A stretch of DNA of 64,000 nt from Planoprotostelium fungivorum (lineage: Eukaryota > Evosea > Variosea > Cavosteliida > Cavosteliaceae), in contig MDYQ01000068.1 in the NCBI GenBank assembly GCA_003024175.1, forward strand, positions 49,577 to 113,576, written 5' to 3'. Within the stretch, counting starts at the first letter, position 1. Every line of letters begins with the position of its first letter. The position numbers were made by a program, and so were the translations under genes. Below the pieces are notes generated by a model. That model ran no database searches. It saw only the letters and a program-made list of their open reading frames with translations, and was not told where the DNA came from. Positions 2,046 to 58,142 of the stretch are shown here, in pieces.

Positions 2046-3028
<983 letters not shown>

Positions 3029-3051
3029 ATCGAGTCTAAATAATTTGGAGT

Positions 3052-4537: not shown

Positions 4538-5363
4538 TTTGTGTATCGTCTTTTTCTGTGTGGATGTCATGAGACAAGAATGATTTTGGATTGGAAGACA
4601 TACCGTCGTGTTCGTGGGGTTGCTGATGTTGTGTGTCTGTATGGAAACGGAGGGGAAGCCTCGGCTCGAAAAGTCGATGAAATTCAAACACGAAATTTGA
4701 AAGAACAACCATCAAACACAAGAGAGGAGATCGAGCCACCTTTAGAAGCAGAAGACCAACGCGAATGGACAGTTCTGTGTCGACCCCAAAGCATTCGTTC
4801 AATCATCCATCCCAAGAGAACAGAATGGTTCATAGAATCACAGAGGCGAGTGCTCGATGGTGTTGATCTGACCTGAGATTAATGTGCACGTGCGACTCAG
4901 GAGAGGAGCGATCTTCGCAAACATCTTTATCTGTGCATCTCATCAATAAGGGAGGACCTTGGTGTGATCTTGACGAGAAATCTTTTTCAGCTGTAGAGAC
5001 CGCCAATATACCATAGATCTGCAACAGTTCAGATCCTGCGACATACGTTGGAGTGCTCTTTCCTGTTGTAATAGGAAGAGAAGGAGGTCGGCGCACTCTC
5101 TTCAATTCGAATCTGAGGTCTTCGCAATAAAGAGGCTCTCAGGATATGAATTCAAAATGGTCTTTTCGAGAGGATATCGTACGTTTCGTTCGTTCATCGT
5201 GTGATGAGACGGATCATCGACACGACTGTCGTCTCCTCGAAAACTGATCGTACACTCCAAATTAGACATGTCATATCTATACAACTTCTCTTCATGACCA
5301 TTTTCTTCACATGATGATGAAACACATCACAACGCTTGAATGAGATGGATGATTTATTTGAAT
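4538..5363. other. Spacer between SH3 gene start and giant gene end
   Basis: No convincing reading frame. It contains the 5'UTR and promoter of the SH3 adaptor and the 3' flank of the giant gene. The counterpart 54,912-55,720 is homologous but has many substitutions and indels, starting at the indel near 4,692 that ends the perfect-identity block. Confidence 0.55.
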
Positions 5364-7216
5364 CTAGATTCTATTCTGGCTGGGAGATCTGTCCACCTTA
5401 GGTGAAGCCGGTGGCGTGACGACTTCCAGCATCATGGTCGGTGTGTACAGACCACTCCTGATGTCCCTGTAGGCCGGCAGCCCCTCGTCATCTTCTTCGT
5501 TGATTCCAGAGTTCTCCAGCCCAATCTGCGTGAGATCCTGCGGCTCCTGCTGCTCTCTCTTCTTCTCCTTCTCCTTTCTATCGAACATCGATTTGATGAA
5601 TGCGGGAATGCAGACGATATAGAAGAGGACCATTGTACCGTAGTGGATCCAGATCATGGCCACGCACAGACGAGTGCGGTTTCGGCTGCTGAGCGTGTTC
5701 TCGTCGACCATGAGAGCGGAGAAGATGAGGACCAGAACGACCACGACCGACAGAAGCAAGTCGATGACCATGGAGAAGTAGTCCGCGTAAGGTCTCTGCC
5801 ACAGGATGATGGCAATGTAAGCCACGAGGATGATGAGTAGGGCGATGATCTGCACGTAGGTGGAAGCGTGTGACGGGTTGGAGGCGAAGAGTGCGACGAC
5901 CAGGGCGAGAAGGAACTTCTTTGCAAAGACGATGAGGTAGAAGTATCTGTGGATGAGTGTGTCCTTTGCTTGCCATGGTTTGTACAAGCCGGCAGTACAT
6001 CCCAACACTCTCGTGTCGTAAGTGTATCTGAGTGGGTCAGATCCAGTCACACGAAGTGTTCTTCACCTGTCGTCTTCGTTCTCTATGGGAGCTCGGGTAG
6101 TCTCTTGCGTCACTTCTTCTCTCGGTGATAAAGATGAGAAGCCGATGGAATCAGGTCTGTAGATCAACTTATGATCTCCCTCTTCTGTTTCGTCTCAGTA
6201 TAAATCGTCCATCACAATGGAATACTCACTGACTACGGCAGATGCAGGTAGATCGACCGGCTGCTTCATCTTGTCCCAACGATGACGTACGGCCAGGATG
6301 TAGATGATGGGGAGTCCGGGCGTGGCGACGAGTAAGACGAAACAGGCCACGATGGTGGCGATGGTCATGGATGTCGAGCCGTCGGTGCCCACTCTACCTT
6401 GCATCACGAGCTGATGCAGGCAGGCAAAGACAACGCCTAGATAAGCGAAGAGACAGATCCTCCACGTGATGGTCTGACAGATCCTCTTCAGCTTCTCACA
6501 CGCAGGTCCGTATGTGACTGAGAGCTTCTGCATGAGATAGAAGAAGAGAGAGAGGAAGGCAGGGATGAGGCAGATGACGACAGTCCAGAAGAGTGTGCCT
6601 GTGAGGTATCTCTCTCCCGGCACGTCGGCCACGGCCTGACTGATGAACTGATCGACAGACTGTAAGGTTCTGTGACCTGCACGTCTCTCCTCTGACTCAA
6701 AGGTGAAGATGAACTGTTTCAGTGCTGTAGAGATCTGTCTCAACTGTGAGTGGTCCGAACAGGTGAATGTGTGTCGTCTCTCACCTGCCAGGGTACAGAA
6801 GCAGAGAGATTGAGCCAAGAGAAGCAGCCAATGAAGTTCATGTAGAAGGTGGGATAGTTGACATTGACCTGAGATGACAGTACCTGCGAACATATTACCT
6901 CTCGCTGCCACCATATGACATCTGCACTCACCATCAGCTGCATGAAGTCGATGAGATGCCAAGCTCTTGATGCTGAGTAGAAGGTGAAGCCAGTGAAACC
7001 GAGAACCAAACCGAAGAAGGTGAGAATGATACCACCGTAGCAGTAACCAGGCTCGCCACCCACGGGAAAAGTGATCTGAATGGAAGATTCTGCACACTGG
7101 TACCACATATCACAGGCAGCGTAACTGATCGTGTCGTTTGTGGCCGTACTGGTGGTGGGGATGTAACGGATGACTAATATCGTTTCGTTGTTGTCATTCG
7201 TGTACACATCGTTCAC
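5364..7216 (-). other. TRP-like (Pkd2/Flc type) multi-pass membrane domain of the giant protein
   Basis: Begins with a helix (GGIILTFFGLVLGFTGFTFY), then SRAWHLIDFMQLM, spliced to VNVNYPTFYMNFIGCFSWLN. That helix plus L/VNVNYP and F-x-W pattern is what fungal Pkd2/Flc TRP proteins show. Further helices follow in the exon 6,240-6,745 (FWTVVICLIPAFLSLFFY, ICLFAYLGVVFACLHQL, IATIVACFVLLVATPGLP) and in the last exon (FAKKFLLALVVALF, IIALLIILVAYIAIILWQRP, VIDLLLSVVVVLVLIFSALM, IWIHYGTMVLFYIVCIPAFI). The tail is charged and cytoplasmic-looking (RKEKEKKREQQ, PPASPKVDRSPSQ). The family call rests on pattern, not a profile search. Confidence 0.7.
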
Positions 7217-10200
7217 GTGAGCAGTACCGTACGAGGGAGTCCTCTATTGATCGTTATTAACTTTTCTCCCATGGAAATGAAGGGTAACATGTGATCTTGT
7301 GACTCACACTAATCTTTGCACTGTCTCGGTCGATGTCGCTGATGTTGAGAGCTACGTAGAGATCGTACATCTGCTGCAGCTTTGTTCCAATGTTCTGTGT
7401 GGAGTCGATGTATATCGTGGGGAAAACCTCTTGGTGAGTCGAATTATCGTAGACGGTAGCATTCAACCATTTGGGTGGTGTAGGTGCCACGACAGTAAAG
7501 TTGAACTGCAGCGGCGAGCACATCGACTGCTCGTTACATGCTGTCAAGATGACGATGAACGACCCAGACTTGAACGGGGGCGGTGTGTACATAGCGTCAA
7601 GCAGATACTATGTAATGCATCAGATGATAGACAATGTCATCTGAGACTCACTGGACTCGATGCTGGATAAGACTGAGATGTGTTCATTGCGAACGATCCC
7701 GAGGTGACTGAGTCGACTCGTACGAAGGACAGAGGCGAGTCAGGACAGAACAGTCTCGAGCTGATGTTCACAGAGACACCTGCCTCCTTCAGCCTCTCTC
7801 TCTTTCACATCTCTTCTCACCATTCTGTGGAGTGATGAGGGTCTGATTCGATGCAAAGGGTGCGTGAGGTCTGTAAGCGACGACGTATGTGATGTTTGCC
7901 TCCTTGCATGCGCCTGTGCTATCGCAGATCTTGTAGCTGACACTATCGTTACCCCAGAAGTATTGTTCTGGTTGATAAGAAACAGTTCCGTTGGTCAAGT
8001 TTGCACTGCCCGATAGAGTGCTCGAAATGAGAGACAGAGTCTTCCAATCGATGTCCTGAGAGNCACGCTAATCTTGGCACTATCTCGATCAATATCGATG
8101 ATGTTAAGAGCGACGTAGAGGTCGTAAGCCTCGTCTGATGATGTTCCAACATTCTGGGTGTTGTTGACGTATATGATCTGATAGACCTCTTGATTGGTAG
8201 AGTTGTCGTATTTCGTCGCATTCAACCATTTGGGTGGTGTAGGTGCCACGACAGTAAAGTTGAACTGCAGCGGCGAGCACATCGACTGCTCGTTACATGC
8301 TGTCAAGATGACGATGAACGACCCAGACTTGAACGGGGGCGGTGTGTACATAGCGTCAAGCAGATACTATGTAATGCATCAGATGATAGACAATGTCATC
8401 TGAGACTCACTGGACTCGATGCTGGATAAGACTGAGATGTGTTCATTGCGAACGATCCCGAGGTGACTGAGTCGACTCGTACGAAGGACAGAGGCGAGTC
8501 AGGACAGAACAGTCTCGAGCTGATGTTCACAGAGACACCTGCCTCCTTCAGCCTCTCTCTCTTTCACATCTCTTCTCACCATTCTGTGGAGTGATGAGGG
8601 TCTGATTCGATGCAAAGGGTGCGTGAGGTCTGTAAGCGACGACGTATGTGATGTTGGCTGCCGCACAAGCCCCCGTTCTATCGCAGATCTTGTAGCTGAC
8701 GCTATCGTTACCCCAGAAGTATTGTTCTGGTTGATAAGAAACAGTTCCGTTGGTCAAGTTTGCACTGCCCGATAGAGTGCTCGAAATGAGAGACAGAGTC
8801 TTCCAATCGATGTCCTGAGAGAGTGTCGGTACAATGTCATCACATGTGATTCACTCACTTGATAACTATCGGGATCGCTGATGTGATCGTACAGATCGAC
8901 TGTGTGGTTGCCTCCCTCGTCAAAGTAGAAGGTCAGATTCTCCGGTCTGGGCTTGTAGTTGACCGTGGCGTATACGAACAAATGTCCAGTGTTGTTCCTC
9001 ACCGCTTCTGATGTCGTCGCAGAAGCGTAACTGAGAGTACTGCTGATTTGGATAACCTGAGATGTTCAGATGATTGTACGGATGTGACGTTCACCTCTCC
9101 CTCCTTGGCTAAATCGTTCACTAAGATGGAAGGATAAGAGAATCCGATCAACTTGCCAGGTAAGAGAGTCAATGCATTGTACGTCAGAACATTCGAACGC
9201 TTTCCACTGTCGATGGTGGACGTTAATTCATCGGGCAGAAGTGTGACGATCTAAACGAATTCGTCAGAACGTACTGCATCTCTCTCCTCTCACCTGCACA
9301 CCAAAAGCACTGACCAGACTGGAGCCCTTGTGGTTGGCATCCAGTTTGAGAGTGACGTAATCGCCCGGATTGATCTATCACCCATTCAGAGATCACATCA
9401 CGATGAATCGGCCTCACCTTTGGATGGGGCGTGTGGATGCTCAAGCTCAGAGACATCTCAGGCATCGTAATGTAACAGGGTGGAATGTCTAATTTGAACA
9501 GACGAGGTAGGTTGGTATCGATATCGGGCCAAGTCAGAGTCAGACTCTGATTGAGGAAGCTCTGTCCTTGGTGTGAGTGAAATAGTGCGAGGGTGGTCTC
9601 ACCGAGGGAGTCGCCCACGACAGTGGCTGCACTGCAAATTTGACGACGAGATTAAGATCTTCGGACAGATCTGCAAGATGATCGAAATTCATCATCCATT
9701 GATGCTCTACCAAGCTAGAATTGGGCAGGTTCGTATCTACCATGGTGACCATTGGTAGATCGGGTGAGTTGGATAACATCATCGTGCCGTCGGGCAGAGT
9801 GATCGAAGTCAATTCTACGCGATGTAAATTCACTACCATACATCTCTCCTCACCCTTCAGTATGACTCCACCACCGATGCTGATGATCGATCCCGATAGA
9901 GTGAAGCGATTGACGTGGGCGGGGACAACCAAGGTGGCCTGGAAGATGACATTCTGTCCCAGCGCGATCGAAAGTGGTGCTGTACTGGCTCCGATGACGC
10001 TGGAAGGATGGATCGAATAAACAGTTGAATCTGCCACATAGGCCTGATCAGGTCAGAATTGAATGAATAGAATGCATCTCACCGTGCTGGAATCGCGAAC
10101 GATGCGAGAGTATGGGTTGGGTGATGTTGCGAAGCTTATCGATTGGATGACCAGATAATTTCCGCTCGAAGTTCCAGCCAACAGTTGCAAGCTGAAAGAC

Positions 10201-13200
10201 CATGTCTGATTGACGGAAAGAGTGTTGAGAGAAAACGAGACGACAGTCGAATTGAATTCCGTGCTGTTTCCTCCTCCATTCACTGCTGATCCAGATACGA
10301 CGGACATCTAACATGATCAATGAACACCTCACGATGGTAAACTCACATCGACGAGCGTCAAGAAGAGCTGAATGCTCTCGGCAGTTGCCGTGGAAGCGAG
10401 AGAATGGGATACGGTGATATTAATCGTCAATCGACTATTGTACGTCGTGTTCGCTGCGTCGAATGTCGATCGAATGCTCAGGGATGGCTGAATGACCTGA
10501 AGAAATAAACGGATATCCAAGAAGAGTGAGACTCACCGTGATGTCTTGGGTTCCACTGACCACGACGGATGGAAGGCTTAAGTCGTAAGAGAAAGATGCC
10601 ACGAGCAGAGGAACGACTGAAGGTAGATCCAACAGTCGATATCGCAAAGTGAAGGTGATTAGTTCGGTGGAATTTGGATGAGACTGAGAGGGTGAGACTT
10701 GTAAGCCGTCGACATCGAAGGTGATGCCGATCTGTCTGTTGCTGACGTCCATCATCTGTTTGTCTCAGTGACTGATGGATAGATAAGGAGGATGACACAC
10801 CGGTAGAGGATGGGTCGCGTTAAAGTTGGCAGAGAAGTTGACATCGGATGATGAACCAATCACCCGAGCTGATTCATACTGATACCATTCAGTTGATTTT
10901 GATTTTCGTATCCTCTCACCTCAACCAATGGATTGCCATGACTGTCCAAGGGGAAGTGCACATTGAATTTTGTGTTTGTGTACGTTCCTCTCACTGCTAC
11001 TATCGTAACGTTGACGTCCGCTGATGTTCCCACTGTCAGACTGTTCAGTGAGCCTGTAGAAGTGGCCACGGGTGATGGCACAGTGACTGTGAGGAACTTG
11101 TAGGATGATGTGGATGTGCGAGGCAGACCAAAGGATGATGGAATGGACTGCCATGAGTTGTCCACTGTCACGTCGATCTTCTGTCCAGGTACAACGGTAG
11201 CATCCGTGACTAACATCATGTCGATGTGTATCTCAGCGCCGATGGGGAAGAGAGGGGCAGTGATGATGAGTTGACCAGATGTGATGACTGATGTGACGTT
11301 GTCGATCGAGAAGGCGTCAGATGTGACGTTGTCTGAGCTACCCGAGATGACGGTGATTCTGAGATTATCTGGGTGCAGTGTCATTCGTTCGAAGCGAATG
11401 GTCGTAGAGATGCTGTGAGCCTCTGCAGTAGAGCCCTCGTGTGACAGAGTGACACTACCGTTCACCGTCTGACCCGCTTGTATAGCAATGTTGCTGGGAA
11501 AGCTAGAGGCAGAGACGAGTGAGGCTTGATGGACAGAGAGAGTGAAAGGGAAGACTTGAGGTGTGCTTCCGTGACTCCATGACAGCTCTGTCGAGTGGTA
11601 CAGTAGCTTGCCTGGGATGTTCTGAGGCAGGTCTTGCAGAGTGCAAGCCACGTATAGTTGAAGACAGTCATCCATGGTGGTGGAACCGTAGGCAGTGCTG
11701 TTGATGGTATCCAGCAGAAGATTGAGGCTACCATCAGAAGAGACAAGAGAGGTGAGATCTTGTCCTTCGCTCAGTCCACTTCCGCTCAGATGTCTTCCCA
11801 CACGGACAACTGTCACATCTGTGCATCATCAGATCACATTCATATCATCAGCTTCTCACTTGTCACTGTCAGTCTGGCTGTTGTGTCCACAGTCATGTTA
11901 CCAAGCGATACCGAAGAGACGAATGAGTTGTCTGAGATGTTGACTCGATGCAGACCGTAAGGGAAAGAGATGAGAAGCATAGAGGACAGTGTCTCTCCCA
12001 CTCTCAGACCTGTCATGACATTGGATGCGTTTGTCGATGTGAGATTCATCAGAGGGTCTTGAGAGTTGGGATAAGTGATGCCCGAAGGAGTGATATTGAA
12101 AGATACCGATGGCATCATATCATCTTGCAGAATGACCGAGATCATCTTTGGATGAGATGATGTGAAGATCAGCTCTCTTGTATCACGTAATATTCTGATC
12201 GACAGTCAGACATCGATTGAGTGACGATGATCAAGGCTGAACGATGCAATAAAAATTGACGATTCGCTCACCTGGACAAAGTGGGAGCGGTCTGCCATAG
12301 CATGTACATGTCACTGTGTGGATAGTGGAATGCAATGTCATTCGACACCGTCACCCTGTAGATGAATGTTGCCGTCTGTCCAGGCTGTAAGACTGGCAAG
12401 TTGAAGCCCACTGATCCGTCTGTAGACTCTACAAAGCTGCCCGAGCTGACAGAGGTTGAGCCACGGACTAGATGCAAGTAAGGGTCTGTCACGTTGTCCC
12501 ACAGCGTGATGTTGTAAGCAGCCACTGTGTTGGCCAGACGATGAGACACGACCAGCTGCATCTCTATGACGTCGCTCTCAGTCACAACAGACTGTGATGA
12601 GGTGAAAGAGAAGTCCAAGAGGGGTGTGACTACGGTCATGACATAGTTGCAGCTTGTGTTCTTGACGTTCCAGTCGACTATGGAAGAGAGAGGCAGAGAT
12701 GCATCGTAGGCGTTGTAGTCGTTGTCAGAGAGCAAGAAGGTCACTCTCACGTCCATCGTGTTGTTCACACCAACGCTAGCCACCTGCACGCGATAAGTGA
12801 AGGAATGTAGATGAAACAAGCATCACCTTGCCAAAGGACATGATGGCAGTAGACATGTTGTGAGCGTCTGCTGTGACTATGGGCAGCGTACCATTCTGAG
12901 GCAATTGATCGAAAGACAGGTCACCATGGAAAGAAGAGTGGACAGACTGGAATGTCATCTGGTTGGCAGGAAGTGATAAGGTGACAGTCAAGTTGTTCGT
13001 GATGCCATAAGGTAACTGTGCAGTCGTTAGTCATGATAGAATGAGGAAACATCGTAAAATGGAAAGGACTCACTCGTAGTTGAACAATGAAATCAACGAA
13101 CTGACCAGGTGTAACAAAATTGTCCGACGTTCTCAGCACATTCAAAGACTGAGGTTTGTAGAAAGTAGGTATCATGTCGACGATCTGAAGTGATATCTCC

Positions 13201-16200
13201 GGTCCTTTTGCTATGTACACTCTCATCTCTACTGATTCTATCACAGGAGAGCTAGTGTAAGATAATTGGGCTGTGACGATCAACAGAAGCACGGGATAGA
13301 ACGGACCGACTTACCAAACGAAGTGTACAGCTTTGAAAATTCAACGTCGCCTCTTATGATGGCAGAGAATTCGATGATGATCGATTCATCGAGAGGGATA
13401 ATTGGTATGGCTACCACTACAGCACCGTGTGAATCCAACATGATTTTACCGGAAGTAGTGTAGAGAGAGGTGGGGCTGACGTTGAGATAACTTTCCACGT
13501 GGTAGATCAAGCGTACATCGAAAGCGGATGCATTGCTGAGTGCAGCATGGGAGATGTCAGCACGGTAGTGAATGACATCTCCTCCTTGGCCAAAAGAACG
13601 AGAAGACTGAGATGATATCAGATTCAATTCATAGACAAAGACATGTGACTCACTGTGCAGTCCACGATCAGAGTGGGCTCTACAATATCGAATCCATAGC
13701 TCTCTTCGAAGAATATTCCGTGGGCAAAAGAGAAGGCTACGTCTACTTCCACGTGTGACATAGCGATAGAACTGCTGCTGTCATCCACATACAGTGCTAT
13801 CTCCACTCTGGCCTCGTTCTCTCGCACTGCAGATGTCGTGCTGTTGCTCATGTTGTCTCTCGGTGACGACTGTATGCCGTCAAAGTCATAGACGATGGTG
13901 GTAGTGGGTCCAGTCGTGGGCGTGACAGAAGCGTTGCTGCCAGTGGCAAGACTGTGAGAGTACAAGTGGTTGCCCATGTACAAGCGAGTAGTGTCCACGC
14001 CAAAGTGAGCGCCAAAGGTGCTGAGAGAGATGTTGACCTTCAACTCTGATGTACTTCCATATGGCAGCTGCAGATAGACGATCAACGTCACGCGTTCACC
14101 GACAGACAGCACGGAGGACGTGTTCGTGTGGATGTTGGAGATGATCTGTGAGCTGGCCACGGGAGATGGTGTGTTTACGCTCAGAATATAATCAGGCAGG
14201 AGGTACAGTCTGGCGTATTGCACGTTCGGTGCACTGAAGAAGTAGAGGCTCAAGGGGTGATCGATCGTGCTGTTCATCGGAGCAAAGTCCCACAGTCTGG
14301 TTGTGTATGACGCGTCAGCCGTGCTGTCTGGAAGGTGACCAAAATATAAGGTGATCGAGTTGTTATGGATGTCCTCTGTGAGATAGGAGCCGGTGTCGAT
14401 GGAGGTTATGTTCCAATTGGGAGTACCAATGATGATTGATACGTGATAAGGTGATGAAGTGGCAGAGAAGAAAGGTTCGACCTGCAGGCTGACGTGGAAG
14501 ACATCACCACCTTGTCCTAAGAAACCATCCATGAAGGCAGATAAGATCAAATCAGGCTCTTGAAGTGTCCAAGTGTGGTCGTACGTCGAAACAATACCGT
14601 CATCTTCGGTCAAGGTCGTTGTGAGGCTGACAGTCTGTCCTATGTAGTTCCTCTCCACATCAGGTGCGTACAGATTGAGCTCAACGATCATCTTTCCATC
14701 TTGCTTCGTTCCATTGCCGATGATGTAGCCAGGCGCTGACATCACTCGGTCAAACGCTCCTTGTATCTCGTCTGCCAGCCCATCGCCATCGATGTCGATC
14801 ACGTCCAGCAAGCTCTTGTCTCTCAGTCCAGTCGAGTTGCTGTGTGAGCCGATGCTGACACTAGCGTTGATGACTTGCAAGGCACCTGTGCCTGACAAGA
14901 GAGTAGAGAGGAAGAGAGAGGAAGTAGAGCCAAAGGGTAGATCGATGACGTGAAGGAGAGTGATGACTTGTCCTATGGTCAAGTAGTCGCTACTATGGCC
15001 TACAATATCCGTGGTGAAGGTGGTAGTGTAAGAGACTGAGGGAGTGATGACCTCTGTGGTAATGACTTCTTCAATGCTCCTAGCGGTAGTGGTGGGGCCG
15101 GACTGGTAGTGCAGCGTGATCGGATTATAGACAACTCTGTTGTATGGGACAAAGTCGTACAGCTTGGCATCAAATGTGATGGTAGTGTTGGTAGACAGGA
15201 CCAATCTTGGTATGAGGATGCTGATCGACTGGTCTCCCACTACTTCTCCAGATAGTACAGTGTAGAGGGGAGAGTCACAGATGATCGAGCCTGGCACAGC
15301 AACGAAGCCGGGAAGGAGAGGCACTTCCAGTCTGGTCTCCATGGCATCAGCAGTGGATTGAGGCAAGTGAGAGATGACAGAGGTGAACTGAATGACGTCT
15401 CCTCCCTGACCGTTAGATGTGTTGGATGCCACGGTGAAGGTGAGGGAAGGCTCAGTGATAGTCCAAGAGAGCTTGGGGACGGTGATGATGGAAGCAGGTC
15501 CAGAGAAGGTGGTCGTCAAGCTGGTCTCCACTTCCCTCGAGTCAACGTGGATATAGAAGATGAGCGTGATCTCGATCTGTGTTCCGGCCAAACTGCGGTC
15601 TCCTCCAATGGATGTGTTGTCGGACGACATGATAGTGCCCAGCTCAAAGTGAACGATATCAGCTGATCCATCTTCGTTCATATCGACCAGTGATGTTGCG
15701 TTCGAGCCAGTAGCCAGCAGTGATGAGTTGACGTCGCTGCCCATAGTGATGATAGATGATACCACAGAGACGGGTACAGAGGGAAGGAAGGCATAAGTGA
15801 CGTTGAGAGCATCAGTTGATCCAATGGGCAGTAAAACAGTGGTAATAATAGTGATCAACTCTCCCACGCTGATGGACGTGCAAGATGCGCCGTGAACATC
15901 GCCAGAGAAGGAAATAGTTGCCGTTGTGATCTGAAAAGATATCACTGAATGAAGTGGAATAGAATTCTCACGTTTGGTGTGGTCACATCGGAAGAGAGGA
16001 TGATCGCCGGATACGTCTTCGCGTAGACGTCGGGTGAGCTGGTGTATGTGATTGATCCTCTGTTGCTGATGATCGCATTCATCTCTGAGAATTCGAACAG
16101 GGTGGCGTTGTACGTCAAAGTCAAAGTCGATGCGATGGGCAGTTCATATACCGTGAGATTGATTGCAGTAGTAGAGGGTATGACTAGGGTAGAGCCACCG

Positions 16201-22200: not shown

Positions 22201-25200
22201 CGTTGAATTGGTGTTGGTACCCATGGTGACTGTGGATGAGACTAAAGCGACGGGTACAGAAGGGAGGAAGGCGTAGGTCAAGTTGAGTCCAGTAGTCGAA
22301 CCAACGGGTAGAGTGATGAGAGTGCTCAGTGTCATCAATTCTCCCACACTGATGGTCGAAGAGGATATACCGTGTACGTCACCAGAGAAGGTAGTGACTG
22401 CCGTAGTGATCTATTGGTCGTATCAGCATAGACTGTGATGATAGGAACTCACGTTGGGAGTTAGAATAGCTGATGAGGGGGTCAGCAGTGGATATGGTCT
22501 GGAATAATTGTTGGGTGAACTCGTATACAAGACGGATCCAGTGTTGCTGATGATGTTGTTCATGGGAGAGTACTCATACAGTGTGGCATTGTACGTGACT
22601 GTGATAGCAGCAACAGTGCTCAAGCTACTCGCCGTGAGGAATAGTCCAGAAGCAGAGGGTATGACAGAGGCTGAGCTGCCAGTGATGACTACAGATCCTG
22701 GTACCAAAGTCCACTGAGGTGCCAGAGGGAAGTTGATGCGAACACCATAAGCTGTAGCTGTTGATGTGCCCTTGTGCGATAGGACCACAGTGAATGCAGT
22801 GTTGGTATTGCCCGGACCGAAAGTGGGTGTATTGCTCTGCGTGACAACCAGTGTTGGCTCAGTGATGGTCCACGAGAGTACGGGAAGAGTGATGGCGGAC
22901 GCAGAGCCAGAGAACGTAGTCGTCAACTTGGCAACAGTTCCGGCCGTATTGGCCATACTATTGTTGGGGTAGAAGAGGATGTTGATCTGTATCTGTCTAC
23001 CGGAGAGACCAGAGCTGCCTCCAATAGATGTGATATCTGATGACATGATATTACCAAGGTTAAAGTTGACGACATCAGCCAGCCCATCGTTATTTGTGTC
23101 TACCAGTGATGATGCGTTCGAGCCAGTAGCCAATAGCGAAGAGTTGACGTTGCTGCCCATCGTGACCGTAGAAGAGACCACAGAGACGGGTACAGTGGCG
23201 AGGAAGGCATAGCTGATGCTGAACGTGTCGGTAGAGCCAATGGGTAGAGTGATGAGAGTGCTCAGTGTTATAAGCTCTCCGACATTGATGAACGAAGAAG
23301 AGGCACCGTGTACATCACCAGAGAAGGTGGTCACTGCTGTTGTGATCTGTTGTTATCATCAATATCTAAAACATTTGCATTCCTTTCTCTCACATTTGGT
23401 GTCGTGATGGTGGAAGTGGGAGCCAAAGCTGGATAAGTGCGAGAATAGTTGTTCGGTGCGCTGGAATATAGGACTGTTCCACTATTGCTGATGACTTTGT
23501 TCATCGGAGAGTACTCATATAACGTAGCATTGTACGTGACCGTAATGGAAGCCAAATTGCCCAAACTACTCGCCGTGATGAACAGACTTGAAGGAGAAGG
23601 TACGATTGCGGCTGCGCCACCAGTAATGACCACAGATCCTGGTACCAAAGTCCACTGAGGTGTCAGAGGAAAGTTGATACGAACACCATAGGCTGTGGCT
23701 GTCGACATGCCTCTGTGTGATAGAGTCACAGTGAAGGCGACGTTGGTGTCTCCTTGACCAGACGTAGGTGTGCTGCTCTGAGTGACAGTGAGAGAGGGCT
23801 CAGTGATAGTCCACGAGAGGACAGGCATGGTGATCGCCGATGCTGAACCGGAGAATGTGGTGGTGAGCTTAGCATTCACTCCGGCCAAATTGGCGGCAGT
23901 GTCGTTGACGTAAAAGAGAGTTGTGATCAAGACTTGTCTGCCAGAGAGACCAGAGCTTCCTCCTATCGTTGTGACATCGGATGATAAGACTGTGCCCAGG
24001 TTGTAGTTGATGATATCAGCTGATCCATCGTTGTTTGTGTCGATCAGTGTCGATGCGTTGGAGCCAGTGATCAACATAGATGAGTTGATGTTCTCCCCTA
24101 AGATGATACTGGATGATACGATTCTGACGGGAACTGAGGTGAGGAAGGCAAAACTGACGTTGTAACCGGTGGTCGAGCCGATGGGTAGAGTGATGAGTGT
24201 GCTCAGTGTCATCAGCTCTCCCACACTGATGGAAGCGGAAGAGACACCGTGTACATCGCCAGAGAAGGTGGTCACTGCTGTTGTGATCTGAAAATTGATC
24301 AATATTCAAGCAATTCAAAGTGCATCTCACGTTGGGTGTCGTAATTATGGAGGAAGGGGTCAAGGCGGGATACGTTCTTGCATTGTTGTTCGGTGAACTC
24401 GTGTATAAGATTGTTCCAGTGTTGCTGATGACCTTGTTCATGGGAGAGTACTCATACAGTGTAGCGTTATAAGTCACTGTGATCGAGGAGGAAGTGCTAA
24501 GACTGACTGCGGTAAGGTATAGTCCAGAAGCAGAAGGTATGACAGAGGCTGAGCTACCAGTGATGACCACAGATCCAGCGACGAGTGTCCACTGAGGTGC
24601 CAGAGGGAAGTTGATGCGAATGCCGTAAGCTGTGGCTGTTGATGTGCCCTTGTGTGATAGGACCACAGTGAAGGCGACGTTGGTGTCTCCTTGACCGAAC
24701 GTAGGTGTGCTGCTCTGCGCTACGGTGAGGACTGGTTCCGTAATGGTCCAAGAGATGACGGGCATAGTAATTACAGTCGCAGGTCCAGTGATGCTTGTCG
24801 TCAGACTTGTACTGATACCCTTCACATTCGTTGCCGTATCGTTGATGTAAAAGAGGGTCGTGATCTGTATCTGTCTGCCCACAAGGCTGCCTCCTATCGT
24901 CGTAACATCGGATGATAAGACAGTGCCCAGGTTGTAGTTGATGATATCAGCCAATCCATCGTTGTTCGTGTCGATCAGTGATGATGCGTTTGATCCAGAA
25001 GAGAGCAGGGATGAGTTGACATTGCTACCAAGGGAAATGGCCGATGATACAACAGTGACGGGGACAGATGGGAGGAAAGAGTAGGCTACATTGAGAGCAC
25101 TGGTCGATCCGATAGGAAGGACAATGGTAGTGGTGAGAGTGATGAGCTCTCCTACATTGATGGATGTAGAAGATGCACCATGGACATCACCGGAGAAAGT

Positions 25201-28200
25201 ATTCGAAGCCGTTGTGATCTGATGTAGTTAAATACAGAGTTCATTCAATGTGTCTCACGTTGGGTGTGATGATGTTGGAGGATGGAGTCAATGTAGGATA
25301 AGTTCTAAAATAGCTGGTAGGTGAACTCGTGTATGTGATCGTTCCACCGTTGCTGATCACTTTGTTCATTGTTGAATATTCGTACAGTATGGCATTGTAC
25401 GTGATTGTGATCGAGGACGTGTTGGTCAGTTCAGAGGCTGTGATGTACAGTCCAGAAACAGTAGGCGTCACGGAGGCTGAGCTGCCAGAGATGACTGCTG
25501 ATCCAGGAACTAACGTCCACTGAGGTGCCAGAGGAAAGCTGATCTGCAGGCCATAAGCAGAGGCTGTAGAGGTGGCAGCGTGCGACAAGATCATTGTGAA
25601 AGCGACGTTGGCATCTCCTTGTCCTGTGATGGGTGTGTTGCTCTGCGTAGCCACAAGAGTTGGCTCTACGATGGTCCAGCTCTGTGACAGTGTTCCGATA
25701 ATTCCAGTCGAACTCTTGGCGATGGCACTGTATGTGATGATGTTCTTCTTGACATTCGATGCCACGTCGGGAAGGTAGATCGATGTTGTGACTGTAATTC
25801 TCCTTGTGGATGCATCTCCGATGGAAGCCATGAGCTTGCCGAGAGAGAAGGTGATCGTGTCATAGATTCCATTGTTGGCCGCACTGGACAATGTAGCCGA
25901 GTCACCCTCGATGAGAAGTGATGAGTTAATATTGCTGCCGAAGCTGACTGTCGAGCTCATGATCTGAAACACTGCACTGCCCGCTACGTTCTGTAGGGAT
26001 AAGGACATACTGGCTCCTGTGGCTTGACCAATGGGCATCGTGAGGTAATGAGAGATGGTGAGCACTTCTCCGATTGATAGCACTGATGGATTGACACCGT
26101 GTACAGTCGAATTGTAGCCTGCAGACAACTGACCGTCTAGTGATGTAACGGACAGTGTCGAAGTGTTGGTGTAATTCCTCGCCCAAGGGGTGGGTGCACT
26201 AAAGTAGAGGACATTGGCCGTAGTAGAAGATACACTCTTGTCTGCTATGTATGTGTACATCGTCGTAGTGTACTGTACTGTCACGTTGACACCTTGCTGC
26301 AGCAGTGGTCCACTGATCAGCACAGATGTGTCGCCGCTGCTGTTGCCTTGTACCACTGTGAACCCACTGTTGCTCACTTGCATCGTGCCAGCTACTAGAA
26401 TGAAGCTGGGAAGCAATGGGATAGTGATATTGAGTTCATAAGCTGGCGAGTTGCTGATGGCTGAGTGATAGAGAGTGATGGTGTGATTGACTGTGTCTCC
26501 TCCTTGCACATTGGTGGAAGGTGTTGTAGTCACTACCATTCCGATGTCTGGCTCCACGACTGGCCACATTGACGTGACCATATTGAGAGCAGTGCTACCA
26601 CTGTAGATGGTAGTCGTCAAGCTGAAGATCTTTCCTCTGACGTTGGTCGGTATGTTGGGCAACACCGAGGTGATCTGAAGGGCGATGCGTCTGTCGGTGG
26701 TGTTCCACAGTGAGAAGCTTCCAGCAGAGATGACGGTCATGTTGGAAGTCAATACGGTCCCCAGGAACAATCTCGATTGATCAGAGAATCCATCTGCATT
26801 AGTGTCGACGAGATCTCCCATCGTCCCGGACGTCGTGTTGGTCGAATTGACGTATGGACCGAACACGATGGTCTGGTCTAACAGCTGAGAGAGTTCAGAT
26901 GGTGGAGATAGAGTGAGACGGTGTCACCTGCACGGTAGCTGTTCCAGTGAAGGACGTGACGATGACGAAATTGTTCATGGTACCGATGGGATTCATGATG
27001 ACCGTGTAACTCATCAGATTCTCACCCACGGTAAGAGAAGTGGGAGCAGATCCTTTGATCGTGCCCGTGTAGTTGGCTGAAGCGACTGGTATGATGGTCT
27101 GAAGGGTAGAAGCTCCCGTCGTTGTGTATGAGCGTGAGGGCAGACCGGGAACACTAGTGTAGTACAGGTTCGCCGTTGTCGTCACGGTGGAGTTCAGCGT
27201 GATGTATTGATACAGCTGAGCCGTAAGATTGATCTGCGGCACAATGAGCTTTCTGTGTGTTCAAATGGGAGGAACTCACTTGTACGATGGTGTTGAGAGG
27301 TAATTGGGAGAGGTTGATAAGAGGTACAGAATCTCCGTTGCTATTTCCCGTGACGATCGTGGCTCCGCTGTAATTGGTCGAAACTGAACCAGTGACCAGA
27401 GAGTAACCAGACAGTGTCGTATTGATGAAAAGGTTAAAAGCGTCCGCGTTCGATGTTGCGGTGTGTCCCACATAGAAGATGAACTGGATGATGTCCGTTC
27501 CTTGTCCAGAACTGGGTGTGTTGCTAGAAGTGATGTAGAGGGTAGGCTCTATGATAGTCCACGTGTTGATAGCGTATCTGGGTGTGCCTCCCACTGACTG
27601 ATACATCGTCGAGTTCAGCCATGATACTGTTCCTCTCCTACGAAAACTATCAGACTTCGTCGATCTTGAATAAATATAGACAGACGTCTCACTTGTTCAA
27701 TGCTTGAGGTGTAATTCTACCCGAAAATGTCAGAGAGAAAGTGCCACCACCGTTGTTGATCCCGGTGTTGTACGAGTACACGTCTCCCATAGAGAACACA
27801 ACCACATCATTGTAGCCATATGCGTTCAGCTGTGACAGACTGGCTGCTGACCCCACTGCCATACTCGAGTTCAAGCTGCTGGCCATGCTTGTCATGTTTG
27901 TGCTGACGATCTGCATGATGGCAGTGGTAGAGCTGAAGAAAGAAAAGCTGAGAGCGAGAGAAGGCACTCGACTGCTGGGCACAGTGACAGTCACCGTGAC
28001 GTTGATGACATCACCGATACGTACAAGACTACCTCCGAGAGGTGTAGCCGTAGTGATCGTGAAGGTGGGTGTGTTGATTGTCACCGTAGTACTAATCTGC
28101 GCTTTGTAATTCCTCCACACCTGACACCGTAATTATTGAAATTGTTCAACACGTGAACCTTACCGAAACACCATTGATGGATGTACTGTTCCAGCTAAGA

Positions 28201-31200
28201 TATCCAGTCAAACTGTAAGTAGCTCCTGATGTCAAAAAGGACGACAAATTGGCCGCAAAGTTGATCGTGAAGCCACTCGGTCCTACAGATGAGATCGCTG
28301 CCACTCCTCCGTCTCCTTGTGTGTTGCCCTGTGTCACTGTTCCCACCACGTTCGTCAGCGTGACACTGGACGATGTGCCCACAAAGATGCCGTTGTAAGG
28401 CGAGCTGAATGAGATGTCGAAAGGTGCAGAGGATGATGCAGAGGCAAGAGGGTAGGCAAATCTGAACGACACGGCATCGCCGGACGACAAGACTGCAGAT
28501 GCGTTTGTTGTCACAGATGACGTCAACAACGGCTCTCTCACTGTCATTGTGCTGAAGCTCACTGTTGCTTTTCAGCTGTCGACTCTGTATCATCAGCTCA
28601 CCTGCAACAGCAGAGGCAGTGGACAGACAAGCGACAGAGAAGGTGGGCAGGATGGTAGTGCCCGCATTGGTCGTTGTTAGATTGGACACAACCGTCTGAA
28701 GTGTGAAGGTCACAGTGGAGGTGGTTGAACTGGACACAACATTATTCAAATTCCAAGAGGCACTCGTGCTCGTCGTTGTGTTGGCTGAAAGACCTTGAAC
28801 TTCGATGGGGGTGATCGAATTGATCGCAGAAACCTATATCCACAACATCAGACGTTTCATCTTATCTTTAAACTCACCGTGGAAGACAGTATGGAAATAG
28901 TGGCAGGGATAGTGAATGTGGCGATGAGATTACTGCACGTGCCAGGAGGTATGGTCACCGTGGACGAAGCATTGACAATGGTTCCGATGGTTACGCTGGG
29001 AAGAGTGACCGTACCGGTGAGACTGCTGGCTAAGCTGCTGACGCCACTGGGTGGAGCACTGATGAAATTGACACTGCTCGTAGTCGACTGTGGGTTGTTC
29101 GTTAGGTGAGATGATGATGAGCATCATACCTTGACTTTACCATTGGTGGGTGCTGATGAATACACGATAGAAGAAGTGATCTGGAATGTACTGTGTAGTG
29201 CGACCGAAGATGTGGGAGAGAAGTACACGGCGATAGAGATCGTGCCTTGTGTCGCATTGATACCCGTGTGATTCAAGTAGAAATAGGGCCAATTCACTGT
29301 GACAACACCACCAGCAACATTGACTAAATTTCCAGAATAAGAGAAACCGTTGGGGATCCTATGGAGAATGCGTCAGTCGAATGTGCATCGATCGATAGAA
29401 GCTCTCACGTGATGTTCACAAACAAATTATAAGAGGCAGTGTTGGTACCCGTACGAGGCACTAAGGAAAGGGTGGTAGAAATGGAATCTCCTGCTTTCAC
29501 ACCACTGGCTGTAGCATTAGTCACCATAGAGGCAGTCAAGAGTGGTTCGTAGACGGTGGTAGTGAAACTGCTAGTGCTAGTTGTAATGAGCAGAGGCCAC
29601 TTCTGTGCGCTCGTGATGACGAGACTCGTGCCTTGTGTAGTGGATGTGGCGATCAGACCCGTCATCTGTCAACGTCAGATGTAAAATATCGAGATAAAAC
29701 TCACGTTGAATGTTATAGTATGAGTTGCACCAGTTAAGCCGTCTGATAGAGCAGAGACAGTCGATGCATAGATGAAAATGGCTGCTTCTGGTATGCCGTC
29801 GTTGTTTGCATCTACAAAGCTGATCGTGGGTGTGCCTGCTGTTATAGCTGTTCCTGTCGATGCCACTGCACATGACTGATAGATCACGCCTGTCGGCAAC
29901 GTCATCGTCACGTTGTATGACGTCATCTGTCCTCCCGGTATCACTGCTGCACTCTGATATGTCGCTATCTCGCCAGCTTGTACGTTTGGATTGGCTGTCG
30001 ATGCCAGTGACGAGTCAGACATGCTCGTTGTGATGCTCGGTGATCCCACTGTAAACGAAGCTGCCACGCTGCCACTTGCTGTGTAGCTTCTGGCCTGACT
30101 ATTGCTGACTGGCTGACTGTAGTATAACACAGAGACGGCAGGCTGCGTGAACACTTGTCCCAGAAGCACTGTAGGTACCACCTTCACTGTGTACTGCAAG
30201 CTGCAGCTAGTCGGCGTCTTTGGCAGTGATGCCATACTGATGTTGACAGATGTGGATGAGACTGCTGAGCCGAAGGTGCCACAAGTGGATGTTGTGACCA
30301 CACTGGCCGACGAGTCGAACTGAACAGGTACAGGATCACTGATAGTGACGTTGTAGATGGTAGTGGGGGTAGATGCCCAGTTGAGCGTCAGTGTGATCGT
30401 CACGCTCGTTCCTTCAGCCGTCAGCAGACATCTGGAACGATGCGCTTACCTCCCACGCCAGTGTTGACGCTGACTGCCTTTGCTATGCTCATCACTGGCT
30501 CGATGATCGTAAAGCTTGCTGACGACTGCATACTGCCATACGGATAGCTCACCATGGCCATCATGTTACCGACCACCGTTTTCTGGTTTACCGCACTATC
30601 TTCTGTCAGCTTTCTGGTGTGTCCTTCTTTCTCTCTCACCTCGAGTTGACAAGCAGAGTGACTGTCATGTTGATGTTCGTTAAACAATTGGTCGTCAGCT
30701 GAGAGCCCCAGCTGAAGGTAGCTGTGTCCTTCGATGCAGAAATGGCGGCAGACGATCCAACAGGCTGAGACGACGAAGAGTAAACTGCGCTGGAAGAAGA
30801 GACGACAGCAGAAGTGATCTGACATAGAGCTGGGCCCGCCTTCGACGTGATGTTCACGACGACCATAGAGTTGATGGAATACGGAACGATAATGGCAAAT
30901 GTGACGGTGATCGTCTCTCCAATGGTTGCACTGTCTGTAAATGGATCAGTGAGATGAATGTACGTGAAGAGACGAAACGTACTGGGTACGGCTGATTGCT
31001 GAGTGAGAGCTGTGAGGGTGATGGGTGCCGTGACGATGTTGAAGGTGTAAGGGTTGGGCGGGACGAACGATGCACCTTTGGCAGTCGAACTGTAATTGAT
31101 GATGGAGGAAGAGAAAGTCGATGTGTATCCAGAAGGCGAAGAAGAATTGATCTTCGCTTGTGTGACGAGAATCTGTACGTTCGGTCCTAACGAGGCATTA

Positions 31201-34029
31201 GAATTCACCTGCACGATGGTGATCTCACCTTGGATGTCAGTGGTGATGTTGGTTGAGAAACCTCCAGTGTAAGGAAGAGTCGCACCGGTGTAGCTACTGG
31301 AACAGGGAGTCGTGAGGGTGCTGATGTAACCACTCTGTACTAATCTCAAAGTGACGTCGTAAGCCGTAGCCGTGAATGTATTCATCAGAACAAACACCAT
31401 GGTCACCGTGTCTCCTCCTTGTACATTCTACATATAACTCAGAGAGAAGATCTAAGATGATTCAACTCACCGATATGCTCGAATAGACCATGGGTGACCA
31501 CGAGGTAGATAACTGACCTGTATAACCAGGGCAAGTGGCACTGCCGGAGAACGTCATACCCGTGAGAGCAGGTTCACTGTTGGGCGTGTGAAGAGGACTG
31601 TCCGTCCAAACGGCAAACTGAGCCAGGAAAGAGACAGAGGGCTCATGATAGTAGACGTTCTTACTCGCCGTGTATTGTGCCGAACTCTCGAATGCATTGA
31701 CGACCGCCTGTGTTGGATCAGCGATGATCAGTGGACGAACCTCTTCACTCACCAGTGAATAGATGACATCCTCCTTTCTCTGCGTTCCACTGACAACGAG
31801 TGAGACTCTGAGGACGAGAACGCTCGTGGGGAACAGAGGATCGTTATAAGCTGGAATTGTAAATTTGATGGAATTACTCTTTGTGTCTGCGGCGGCCTGA
31901 ACGTTGAGAGATGCAGCACTGGTGGTTGTATCGTAGAAGGAAGTGACGGATCCCGTAGTATTAGCGGATGAAACGGTGTTGGCGTGATAAAGTGCCGGGC
32001 TGCCACTGGCAGTTTTCCAATTCCAAACGAATCGATCCACACCCTCTATGATGGGTGGAAAGAAGACCTATCGATGTTCATCATTCGATCGACACAATGT
32101 CTCACCTGTATGGTGATTCCACCGAAAGTGCTGATGGGCAAGACGTACTGAATCTCATATGTCACCATGTCTCCAGCGACTACATCATTATTCGCATTGG
32201 GTGGCTGACTGTTGATGGCGTAGACGATGACAGATAAGGGACCAGAAGAAACAACGATGGAAGCGGAAGAGGTGTCCGTTACTGCGGTACCCCCCGTGAC
32301 GCCCACGTTGGCCGAAAACACGACCGATGATCCAATCTTGTCTCCTTGTCTCACCTGACACAGTCGTTCGTTTCATTGTCTCTCCACACATGTATTTTCT
32401 CACCGGCACAGAAGTGGCCACGTAAAAAGCGGAAGTTCTACTACCGTATCGAATGGAGGCAGTCCAGGGTCCGTAGGCCACTCCATTGCTCGTCGCGTTG
32501 ATGGATCGAAGTAGAGAGCTGACGTTGAAGGTGATGACGGACTGACCGGACGTGGTGGTGATGGAGGTGAAAGCGGTTAGGTCGTACGTCTGGCTCGATA
32601 GTGTCATGGATGGAGATATACCACCGGTGACGTTGTGACCGTCGTCCAGAGTATCCACGATGACGAGAGAGTTGAAGGTGAAGTAATCCGAGATCTACGA
32701 TGAAGGTCAGAAGAGGAAGAGATGATAGAAATATGTCAGAGAGAATGAGAGATGAATGTGAGTTGAAGCTCACTTGAAAGTTTAAGGTGAAGTTGTTGAC
32801 TTGATAGGGCCGAGTGTTCGATTTTAATACCGATTTCTGTATGGCCAGTGATTTGATGTTGTGGACGAGGGTCGCAGTATAAGCCGGATAATTGGCTGCC
32901 GCGAAAGAGTGGACGATGCTGTATGTGATGGCCGCTCCACTGGCAGGTAAAACACTACCTCCGGTGTAGGTCCTCGGTGCGTACCTTTCATCGTGTCATA
33001 GATGTGCATGATAACATGATGAGTCTCACCATGTGTAACTAAAGAACAGAGAAGGTGCACCGGTTCCAACGACATTCCCCCAGCTCCACGAGGTCGAAGT
33101 TAAGTTGACCGGATTAGAAGATGTTTGCGTTTTTACGACGGGAATAGAGCCAGTTAAGAGGGGTACCGTTAAGACAGAGGAATTGAAAGACGTGGGCATC
33201 AATGTGATGGATCCACTGGCAGTGATCGGAAACGATGGTCCAGACACAGTCTCACTCTCGGGCAAAGACGAACTCAATGCGTCGATCTGAGAAGTTGAGA
33301 AGATGTTGAGAAAATGATCTCCTGAGATGCGATGATGATACGCACCGAATATAACGGAGAGACGACTCCAATAGAGGAAGTCCATGACAGACTGATCGTG
33401 TCTTTGAATAGAATTCTCGATTGAATGGTGTATGTGGTGGAAGGATTGGCTCCTGAGGACATGGTGGCAAACAGAGATATAGAGAAGGGAGATTGATTAG
33501 TTCCTATCGTGTCCGTAGGGACAGAAAACGAAACATAGGTGTATCCCACCGTTCCACATACTCTGATGGCAGGTCAGAACGACGATGGAATTCGGATCAT
33601 GTTTGTGATGGAGACTCACTGGATCGAGGAATTGAAGTTACTGTTCACACATCCTCCTGCAGGAATGATCGCAGAATTAAATGTGATGGCTGTTACATTT
33701 TGGAAATAAACAGAATTCAACAGGATTCCGTTGCCTCCTGCACTCGGTATGATGAGTTCTACAAATGGGGTGTAACCTTTGAAGAAGATGAGTTTCGCCT
33801 GTCACATGTTTTGTCTCCTCACATAAAAGGACGCTTCCATCGCTCGAGTCACACCCAACGTTAGTTGTGAACTGCCCGTTCTTGCTAGCGAATATGGAGC
33901 TTGGTCCACTTAATGTGGTCGTTCCTAGGGATCTTCATGAGCTCTTAGCAGCGTCCTGATAGTCTCACCATAGATATCAGCTCCTGCACAAGCTATGAAG
34001 ATGCTCGAGAGGAGCAAGAGCACACGCAT
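5364..34029 (-). CDS. Giant surface protein: DUF11-like repeat ectodomain fused to TRP-like membrane domain
   Basis: Estimated 8,000-8,700 residues in dozens of exons. Start: ATG 34,029, giving signal peptide MRVLLLLSSIFIACAGADIY. The N-terminal region (34.0-31.4 kb) is unrecognised but shared with the right-arm paralogue. From about 31.4 to 9.2 kb come beta-rich repeats with DUF11 traits (GGDTVTMVFVL..TATAYDVTL; GQGDTNVAFTVVLSH..STATAYG). Then follow bacterial Ig/cadherin-like segments (9.0-7.3 kb; WGNDSVSYKICD) and a multi-pass C-terminus resembling the TRP/Pkd2/Flc family. Stop TAG at 5,364-5,366. Many N-glycosylation sequons fit an extracellular location. Inferred role: adhesion or matrix sensing coupled to an ion channel. 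The exact exon count is uncertain, a sequencing gap lies at 8,063, and automated prediction may split the gene. Confidence 0.8.
7305..8821 (-). repeat. 758 bp tandem duplication in the Ig/cadherin-like segment, with a gap base
   Basis: Units 7,305-8,062 and 8,064-8,821 are separated by a single N at 8,063. The central part (about 7,465-7,894 against 8,224-8,653), including an intron, appears identical, while both flanks differ clearly (STGACKEANIT against RTGACAAANIT). The right arm has one unit, most like the lower-coordinate one. At the N, a donor (GTG) is followed after one base by CTCTCAG, so an intron of about 45 nt is collapsed to 11; sequence is probably missing there. Confidence 0.8.
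9240..31459 (-). repeat. DUF11-like repeat region of the giant protein (absent from the paralogue)
   Basis: About 22 kb of exons coding repeated beta-sandwich-like modules. The recurrent pattern is a start such as VGELITLTT-x-LPIGST, a loop D-x-N-x-DG-x-x-D, a segment ending SWTITEP, then GQGDTNVAFTV-x-LSH, a PGS turn and TYNATLYEY. This resembles bacterial DUF11/isopeptide-type surface repeats. Modules vary in length: one intronless exon (15,930 to about 13,650) holds more than two units. No part of this region is found in the right-arm copy. Confidence 0.75.
17790..25218 (-). repeat. Tandem array of eight near-identical phase-0 exons
   Basis: Eight exons start at 25,218, 24,287, 23,346, 22,410, 21,469, 20,543, 19,615 and 18,686, a period of 926-942 bp. 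Each codes about 295 residues and begins with a version of ITTA-x-TTFSGDVHG followed by I-x-VGEL, and ends ITTPN just before a GTGAGA donor. Both splice phases are 0, so exons can be gained or lost without shifting the frame. A ninth start at 17,744 and a tenth at 15,930 open longer, composite exons. Confidence 0.88.
31460..34029 (-). other. N-terminal region of the giant protein (shared with paralogue)
   Basis: Secretory signal, then exons including VELIIPSAGGNG, YTIQSRILF and GPSFPIT, and a segment with TFGGITIQ near 32.1 kb. No family recognised. The right-arm paralogue matches exon for exon over 49,312-51,842 with the same intron positions, but with much lower identity than in the channel domain. 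Confidence 0.65.
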
Positions 34030-34298: not shown

Positions 34299-34908
34299 TT
34301 AAAAGGCTCCAGAGCCGATGCCCTTGTAACCGTTGATAGCATCGATGCGGTTCTCCTTGCCACCGATAAAGTTGCCTATCACGTTCAAATCTCTCAACAG
34401 AGAAAAGTCGTCGGTGGCGGCTGCGTATCCACCTGTCAGACCGGTCAGCGCTCAAAACTAAACACCAGCTCACCAAAGGGGCTGCTAGCAGCCTTTCTGT
34501 GAGGAGTCACGAGCTGGTAGACGGCATCAATGAGAGAGAAATCGGTGACATCGTCTCCGTAGCCTCCAAAGAGCTCATCGAAGTTCCTCTTCCGTCCGAA
34601 ACCTTGAGCGTGGTGTCAGGTCATCTTCTTTTCTCAAACTCACCGGAGAAGTCTCCGCCAAAGCCGTTGATAGCATCGATTCGATTCTTTTTTCCTCCGA
34701 TGAAGTTGCCGATGATGTTGATGTCGGAGAGGAGACCGCGATCGTCAGCGTCATTCTCTCCTCCCTTGAGAACACTGGCGATGGTGAGAAGGCGTGACAC
34801 TTGATCCGACTGGTAGCTGGCCGCTCCTCCGGGTCCGGCAGCTTTAAAGCTTTGAGCGGAGACGAGGCAGAGAGCGGCTAGGCCGACGGTGACGAGTAAG
34901 AGTTTCAT
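34299..34908 (-). CDS. Small secreted protein with a duplicated IGNFIGGK motif
   Basis: Three exons (34,644-34,908; 34,474-34,602; 34,299-34,432) join in frame to 175 residues. A clear signal peptide (MKLLLVTVGLAALCLVSAQS) opens it. Two copies of a short motif follow, about 90 residues apart: DINIIGNFIGGKKNRIDAING and DLNVIGNFIGGKENRIDAING, the second close to the C-terminus. Between them lies a basic GRKR site followed by NFDELFGGYG, the kind of site cut by furin/kexin proteases. No known family. It sits in the unduplicated core, transcribed in the same direction as the giant gene. Function unknown; a processed extracellular peptide or cell-surface component is possible. Confidence 0.8.
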
Positions 34909-57206: not shown

Positions 57207-57229
57207 ACTCCAAATTATTTAGACTCGAT

Positions 57230-58142
<913 letters not shown>

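Follow-up and report, generated by a model that had tools for sequence, protein, structure and literature searches.

A giant repetitive ectodomain and a TRP-like (PF06011) membrane domain on one predicted polypeptide of Planoprotostelium fungivorum

Introduction

Animal polycystin-1 has PKD, REJ, GPS and PLAT domains and a PKD channel fold. In Chlamydomonas, the authors who studied MST3 propose that its large ectodomain is borne by a PKD-like domain which forms part of a PKD2 channel complex, and they liken MST3 to human PKD1 (PMC11015965, available part). PF06011 is the membrane domain family of the fungal Flc/Pkd2 proteins. Flc1 of C. neoformans, a PF06011 protein, has 766 aa; according to the available text on it, PF14558 is present in most of the tested Flc1 homologues of three fungal phyla and mostly absent from a longer fungal Flc1 subgroup (PMC9600462). 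Fission-yeast Pkd2 has a nine-helix membrane domain and an essential extracellular domain, and the reconstituted protein passes Ca2+ on membrane stretch (PMC11277609, available part).

Here, we describe a locus of P. fungivorum that combines features of these systems. The window, the whole stretch of 64,000 nucleotides analysed, is C462:49577-113576, the terminal part of the 113.6-kb contig C462 in a genome of 36.9 Mb. The giant protein predicted in it resembles fungal Flc/Pkd2 proteins in its signal-peptide-like start, a PF06011 membrane domain of perhaps 8-9 helices and a predicted short cytosolic tail. The fungal proteins, however, often contain PF14558, and Flc1 has 766 aa (PMC9600462, available part), whereas the giant proteins have 8,600-9,600 aa with Big_9 and an unassigned repeat, and no PF14558 match was found. 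MST3 with PKD2/SIP is comparable, since a PKD-type channel domain there directly carries a large ectodomain that is glycosylated and is a proposed tether, but, as far as the available text goes, it belongs to another channel family, forms a poly-hydroxyproline filament co-assembling with MST1, and has a domain completed by SIP (PMC11015965). Animal polycystin-1 is similar in that its TRP-fold membrane part carries a giant ectodomain containing Ig-like domains (see also PMC11015965). Pfam found no polycystin-1-type PKD, REJ, GPS or PLAT domain in the pieces of the giant protein that were scanned, and the C-terminal piece gave no match to a TOP domain either. Bacterial DUF11/Big_9 adhesins are alike in the Big_9 domain, found above cut-off, and in the second half of the repeat module, the consensus of which aligns with DUF11 below cut-off; unlike them, the giant protein is eukaryotic and intron-rich and has a channel-like membrane end.

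A giant ectodomain on a polycystin-type channel is known; what differs here is the channel family, along with the protein's size and its repeat module. An earlier reading of the locus, made from the sequence only, called the combination a plausible new system. That wording went too far, as PKD1 already shows the principle and MST3 is proposed to follow it (PMC11015965, available part). A literature search of titles and abstract starts found no description of a giant PF06011 protein, which does not prove absence.

A single giant gene on the minus strand

Our own spliced-gene predictor, trained on the open reading frames of the window, returned one minus-strand gene from 34029 to 5364 with 60 exons encoding 8,608 aa. 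The predictor ran without the end points of the sequence-only reading as input and arrived at exactly the same two. The single continuous gene claimed in that reading is supported by spliced prediction and, as described below, by homologous copies under purifying selection. A bacterial-type ORF listing splits the same region into fragments. On the opposite strand of these 28.7 kb, the longest model from the same predictor has 132 aa, and dinucleotide shuffles of the region yielded no gene in 10 of 10 cases; since the training set contains the giant-gene region, the shuffle control excludes chance and is not an independent proof. Forty-seven of the 59 introns start with GTGAG, and 55 measure 38-64 nt. 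Two have the unusual donor GTTGG, and one of these adjoins an N at 8063, so the exon chain there is unreliable. The predicted 108-nt intron at 6392-6499 keeps the reading frame, contains no stop in it and would encode a hydrophobic segment. It differs at 6 of 108 bases from a homologous contig of the same genome (C55), and it aligns with hydrophobic segments of two smaller TRP-like proteins (C387 and C460, see below). This segment is probably an exon carrying one membrane helix and not an intron; counted as an exon, it gives a gene of 59 exons and 8,644 aa.

The first exon (33969-34029) encodes a signal-peptide-like start, as judged from translation and hydropathy. Modules and unassigned sequence then take up about 7,600 residues, followed by Big_9/cadherin-like domains, 8-9 hydrophobic segments and a short tail, in agreement with the signal peptide and giant ectodomain proposed earlier. 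This confirms, for the predicted polypeptide, that a giant repetitive ectodomain and a PF06011-type membrane domain are encoded together.

Other genes lie nearby. A small predicted secreted protein of 175 aa is encoded just upstream of the giant gene (34299-34908, minus strand) and is also present in C55. Between the two giant genes of the window, a gene of more than 1,100 aa (36828-42590, minus strand) has a product that presumably resembles SZT2; Pfam gave no match on two pieces of it. The window contains no RNA gene at gathering score and no tRNA.

The ectodomain and its module of about 295 residues

The N-terminal ectodomain (28164-33924, minus strand) comprises, after the signal-peptide-like start, about 1,700 aa without an assigned family together with degenerate repeats, to which module profile matches are weak or absent. 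Next come 16 tandem modules, each about 295 aa long (13239-28120, aa 1714-6421), all matched by a module HMM at E<1e-3. In the exon table and alignment, eight consecutive modules (17787-25218) are each encoded by one phase-0 exon of 885-900 nt. The membrane-proximal ectodomain (9095-13238) is degenerate, with weak module matches. The giant protein contains 12 copies of Dx[NDS]xDGxx[DN], which we take to be a putative Ca2+ loop from similar loops in other families, and 199 N-glycosylation sequons. Tandem Repeats Finder reported only one short array, at 6884-6923; the modules exceed its period limit. Between the two halves of the module, hhalign found no homology.

The number of modules at E<1e-3 is 16 in the window gene, 16 in the minus-strand gene of C55 and 20 in its plus-strand gene, suggesting that rod length can evolve by exon duplication. 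A single module used as a query hit 54 places in the genome. Two of them are decayed fragments in contig C170, and the others all lie in C462 and C55. The fragments (C170:17501-20000) contain stops and are next to an aldo-keto-reductase-like frame; they are possibly the relic of a further giant-gene copy.

The sequence-only reading described the repeats as DUF11-like and bacterial Ig-like. The DUF11 (PF01345) identity was rejected, as it never rose above cut-off in genome-wide searches, long pieces, exons or consensus sequences. The exon-by-exon profile search of the genome gave no PF01345 match, and only 1 of 32 repeat exons gave a sub-threshold one (E 0.0029); a set of 12 repeat exons had likewise given one, at the same E. 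A consensus built for the module's second half scores 12.7 bits against DUF11 (E 0.16, cut-off 24.6) and aligns over positions 2-96 of 114, so a distant relation is possible. Other Pfam matches on repeat exons were also below cut-off (13 families in addition to DUF11, none better than E 0.011, including FG-GAP_3 and FG-GAP), as were DUF1010 on the module consensus (E 0.01) and CshA_repeat (E 1.9e-4) and EMI (E 0.16) on the C-terminal piece; the Pfam pieces covered the giant protein apart from parts of aa 6,315-6,540 and 7,117-7,556.

NCBIfam had nothing near cut-off for 10 exons. The last exon gave 11 weak membrane-protein matches; the best, to an AgrC histidine kinase, reached 23.8 bits (E 2.3e-5) where the cut-off is 500. 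A dapA match at E 0.013 came from one ectodomain exon. We treated these as composition and not as true relatives. PHROGs, searched with 12 exons, returned 3 families with one member each at E 0.077-0.98. The module profile matched no PDB sequence up to E 10, and the membrane domain gave one chance-level PDB match (E 0.37). Two peptide patterns matched 22 times in bacterial genome contigs and 9 times in viral contigs, and none of these matches was confirmed as a relative of the module. One module had no match in plasmids and one membrane exon none in phages. By these comparisons, the module has no accepted relative in PDB, NCBIfam, PHROGs or plasmids and no Pfam match above cut-off.

The Big_9 stalk and the TRP-like membrane domain

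The bacterial-Ig-type repeats proposed by the sequence-only reading do exist next to the membrane. Big_9/Cadherin_5 domains occupy 7308-9056 (minus strand; genome matches C462:57464-57631 and 58223-58402) and appear doubled across the N. PF17963 (Big_9) scores 92.3 bits (E 3.5e-26, cut-off 23.6), a score that includes the doubled stretch. The genome contains 8 Big_9 places, 5 of them in C462 and C55. Further Big_9 matches, at C107:91137-95365 and C21:170856-171002, fall in open frames of 786, 331 and 926 aa, which are possible further adhesins.

By hydropathy, the membrane domain (5364-7243, minus strand) has eight clear segments and, at VNVNYP, one weaker stretch; after the membrane helices comes a tail about 80 residues long. 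The C-terminal TRP/Pkd2-type domain that had been proposed from the helix pattern was recovered by PF06011 at 41.5 bits in the C-terminal 1,052 aa (E 1e-10, cut-off 28.5) and at 47.4 bits in the last exon alone (E 1.7e-12, same cut-off). The match, at 5547-5948 (C462:55123-55524), spans about positions 290-418 of the 426 of the model, that is, its last third only (128 positions), and the exon with the middle helices had no PF06011 match. The VNVNYP stretch, cited in support of the same claim as a motif of Pkd2/Flc TRP proteins, is present. All 7 scored places in the own genome matched PF06011, 5 of them above cut-off, whereas none of 14 control genomes gave a match. The lipid-binding domain PF14558 was absent from the Pfam matches of the giant-protein pieces scanned and from the own genome with exons searched separately; the control genomes gave no PF14558 match either.

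These results bear on two alternatives. Flc proteins take part in flavin transport and calcium homeostasis (PMC9600462, available part), and the giant protein might accordingly be a secretory-pathway Flc-like carrier or Ca2+ regulator with a lumenal ectodomain. We consider this very improbable, because a TRP_N domain was not found and the ectodomain is repeated, glycosylatable and variable in length, like an adhesin. Alternatively, the ectodomain may be cleaved and then shed or built into a matrix, leaving the membrane part as a chaperone or an independent channel. Very large ectodomains are often processed, and polycystin-1 is cleaved. Still, Pfam detected no cleavage domain such as GPS in the C-terminal 1,052 aa, and we regard cleavage as distinctly unlikely.

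Homologous copies and the N at 8063

C55, a contig of 86.9 kb without any N, carries a minus-strand gene modelled at 8,250 aa and a plus-strand gene modelled at 9,561 aa, divergent and in the same arrangement as the pair in the window. The 9,561-aa model carries the TRP domain. In the 8,250-aa model the membrane region is disrupted, and this disruption may be real or made by the assembly. The window aligns with C55 over 29.4 kb (22531-51883) at 95.7%, and no megablast piece of at least 800 bases links the left flank of C55 to the compared stretch of C462. By these comparisons, C55 may be either the other allele of the window or a duplicate. Elsewhere in the assembly, myosin matches at C35:8350-10676 and C112:49496-51822 score identically and face opposite ways, which suggests that haplotype contigs were duplicated or left unmerged; the exon-by-exon search found 106 myosin matches in the genome. 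One myosin exon of 167 aa scores up to 253.7 bits with Dictyostelium myosin-2 entries and at most 203.5 bits with the other entries among the 60 listed of 120, in keeping with a probable amoebozoan host.

On the plus strand of the window, a relative at 49312-54911 has N-terminal exons followed directly by Big_9 and TRP exons (TRP match 54339-54746), as seen by genome profile search, prediction and comparison with C55. It lacks about 26 kb of ectodomain that are present in C55. One end of the break falls within an intron, the other within an exon. We rejected this gene as a natural short form, as the single nearby acceptor checked by eye breaks the frame. The break position and frame loss point to a deletion or an assembly collapse, not to a working short form.

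The N at 8063 is a single base and a probable assembly join. A piece of about 760 bp stands on both sides of it (7295-8062 and 8064-8821, 92% alike; the second copy begins at 8054 when delimited, as 8054-8821, by self-comparison and copy comparison). In the other three copies, namely both C55 genes and the plus-strand gene of the window, the piece is single. The sequence to the left of the N, 2278-8061, matches the far right end of the window at 95% and C55, where it aligns, at only 83-88%. The simplest reading is that the N is a scaffold join of overlapping contigs; the TRP end of the window gene may then be mis-scaffolded, perhaps from another copy. The stretch 2207-8061, with the TRP end and an SH3 gene, is an inverted copy (94.5%, by self-comparison) of 52230-58028, for which gene conversion, duplication and assembly are all possible. 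The SH3-domain gene lies directly downstream of both TRP ends (3234-4711, minus strand, and 55799-57024, plus strand). Both copies encode the same protein (230-aa model), and two pieces of the copy on the minus strand matched SH3_2 and SH3_9 in Pfam. C55 has no match to this stretch. A functional link between the SH3 gene and the TRP tail is only a thought.

The duplicated flanks of the N, and the greater closeness of the left piece to the far right window end than to C55, could mean that separate repeat and TRP genes were joined by the assembly or the gene model. Against this, C55 contains no N, and in both of its gene models the modules continue into membrane exons, so the architecture is independent of the join. 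Moreover, the plus-strand copy of the window also runs from Big_9 exons to TRP exons, and its N-terminal and membrane exons flank a deletion. We therefore find an artefact of this kind barely credible.

Purifying selection

We calculated dN/dS region by region with our own Nei-Gojobori script. Between the window gene and the two C55 genes, dN/dS was 0.11-0.29 in 18 of 18 region tests: 0.17-0.29 against the plus-strand gene (9 regions, 8,317 codons) and 0.11-0.27 against the minus-strand gene (9 regions, 8,183 codons). The two C55 genes compared with each other gave 0.17-0.41 in 9 regions, with 0.41 coming from 108 codons only. In the repeat core, the order of modules differs, so the alignment is partly non-orthologous, and dS exceeds 1 there in both window comparisons. 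For the membrane part, the values against the two C55 genes were 0.29 (459 codons) and 0.24 (277 codons). As estimated from these alignments, this shows constraint along the whole length of the predicted protein, membrane part included.

TRP-like relatives in the same genome

Three further proteins of this genome have TRP-like helices under other ectodomains: leucine-rich repeats (LRR) in C387, with an additional PA domain, and in C460, and an EGF-like ectodomain in C443 (Pfam EGF_TEN, below its cut-off). Against the PF06011 cut-off of 28.5 bits, C387 scores 34.9 in the genome search, C460 25.9 by exon and 30.1 as a whole model, and C443 25.3, below it. The spliced model of C387 lacks PF06011 at E<=0.01 despite the genome match and is probably incomplete. 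Like the giant protein, the three have a signal-peptide-like start and an ectodomain on TRP-like helices; unlike it, they have only 939-1,152 aa in the spliced models and other ectodomains. Judging by domain content, the LRR- and EGF-type proteins are perhaps a receptor-like family of their own.

The variety of ectodomains on these helices means that the helices may be a general receptor anchor. The giant protein could then be an adhesin or glycocalyx protein held by a non-conducting TRP-like domain, and the dominance of the ectodomain and the coverage of only 128 of 426 PF06011 positions speak for this. On the other hand, one helix is enough for anchoring, and constraint on the membrane part (dN/dS 0.29 and 0.24) is similar to that on the remainder of the protein. 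We consider a plain anchor unlikely, though it deserves to be taken seriously.

A proposed surface tether on a channel

The reading that we favor, to which we give a little less than an even chance, is by analogy a surface tether in a single polypeptide, the pulling or binding of which gates Ca2+ entry. The giant protein would be displayed outside the cell, where its tandem, presumably beta-type modules would form a rod; most core modules have a putative Ca2+ loop and many N-glycosylation sites. If about 7,000 aa fold into domains of some 145 aa and each domain adds 4-5 nm, both being assumed sizes, the rod would very roughly reach 0.2 micrometre. The distal end of the rod would bind a surface, a prey cell or another cell, and pull or binding would pass through the Big_9 stalk to the membrane domain, which would then admit Ca2+ as fission-yeast Pkd2 does under stretch. 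PF06011 and Big_9 above cut-off, the TRP domain in the N-free plus-strand homologue of C55 and the dN/dS of 0.11-0.29 support the tether and channel, as do the module counts, the eight modules that are single phase-0 exons, the motif copies and sequons, and the precedents of Pkd2 and MST3. Against it stand the restriction of the PF06011 match to the last third of the model, the absence of PF14558 from the matches (although a longer fungal subgroup mostly lacks this domain as well), the N before the TRP end in the window and the disrupted membrane region of one of the two C55 genes.

A bolder version, which we find more doubtful than likely, is a force-gated 'fishing-line' channel. Here, a polypeptide of 8-10 thousand residues would form a Ca2+-stiffened rod of new-family modules pulling directly on a fungal-type TRP channel, and exon duplication among paired divergent copies would vary the rod length, the pattern expected if a recognition or capture receptor is diversifying.

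The repeat module defined here is described above cut-off by no profile library searched. The locus may encode a huge tether wired straight to an ion channel. If this is true, a second channel family, outside animals and green algae, also made the step from a plain channel to one with a giant tether. The gene would then offer a one-gene system for testing whether a TRP-type channel can be gated by force on a surface rod, a question that polycystins also pose.
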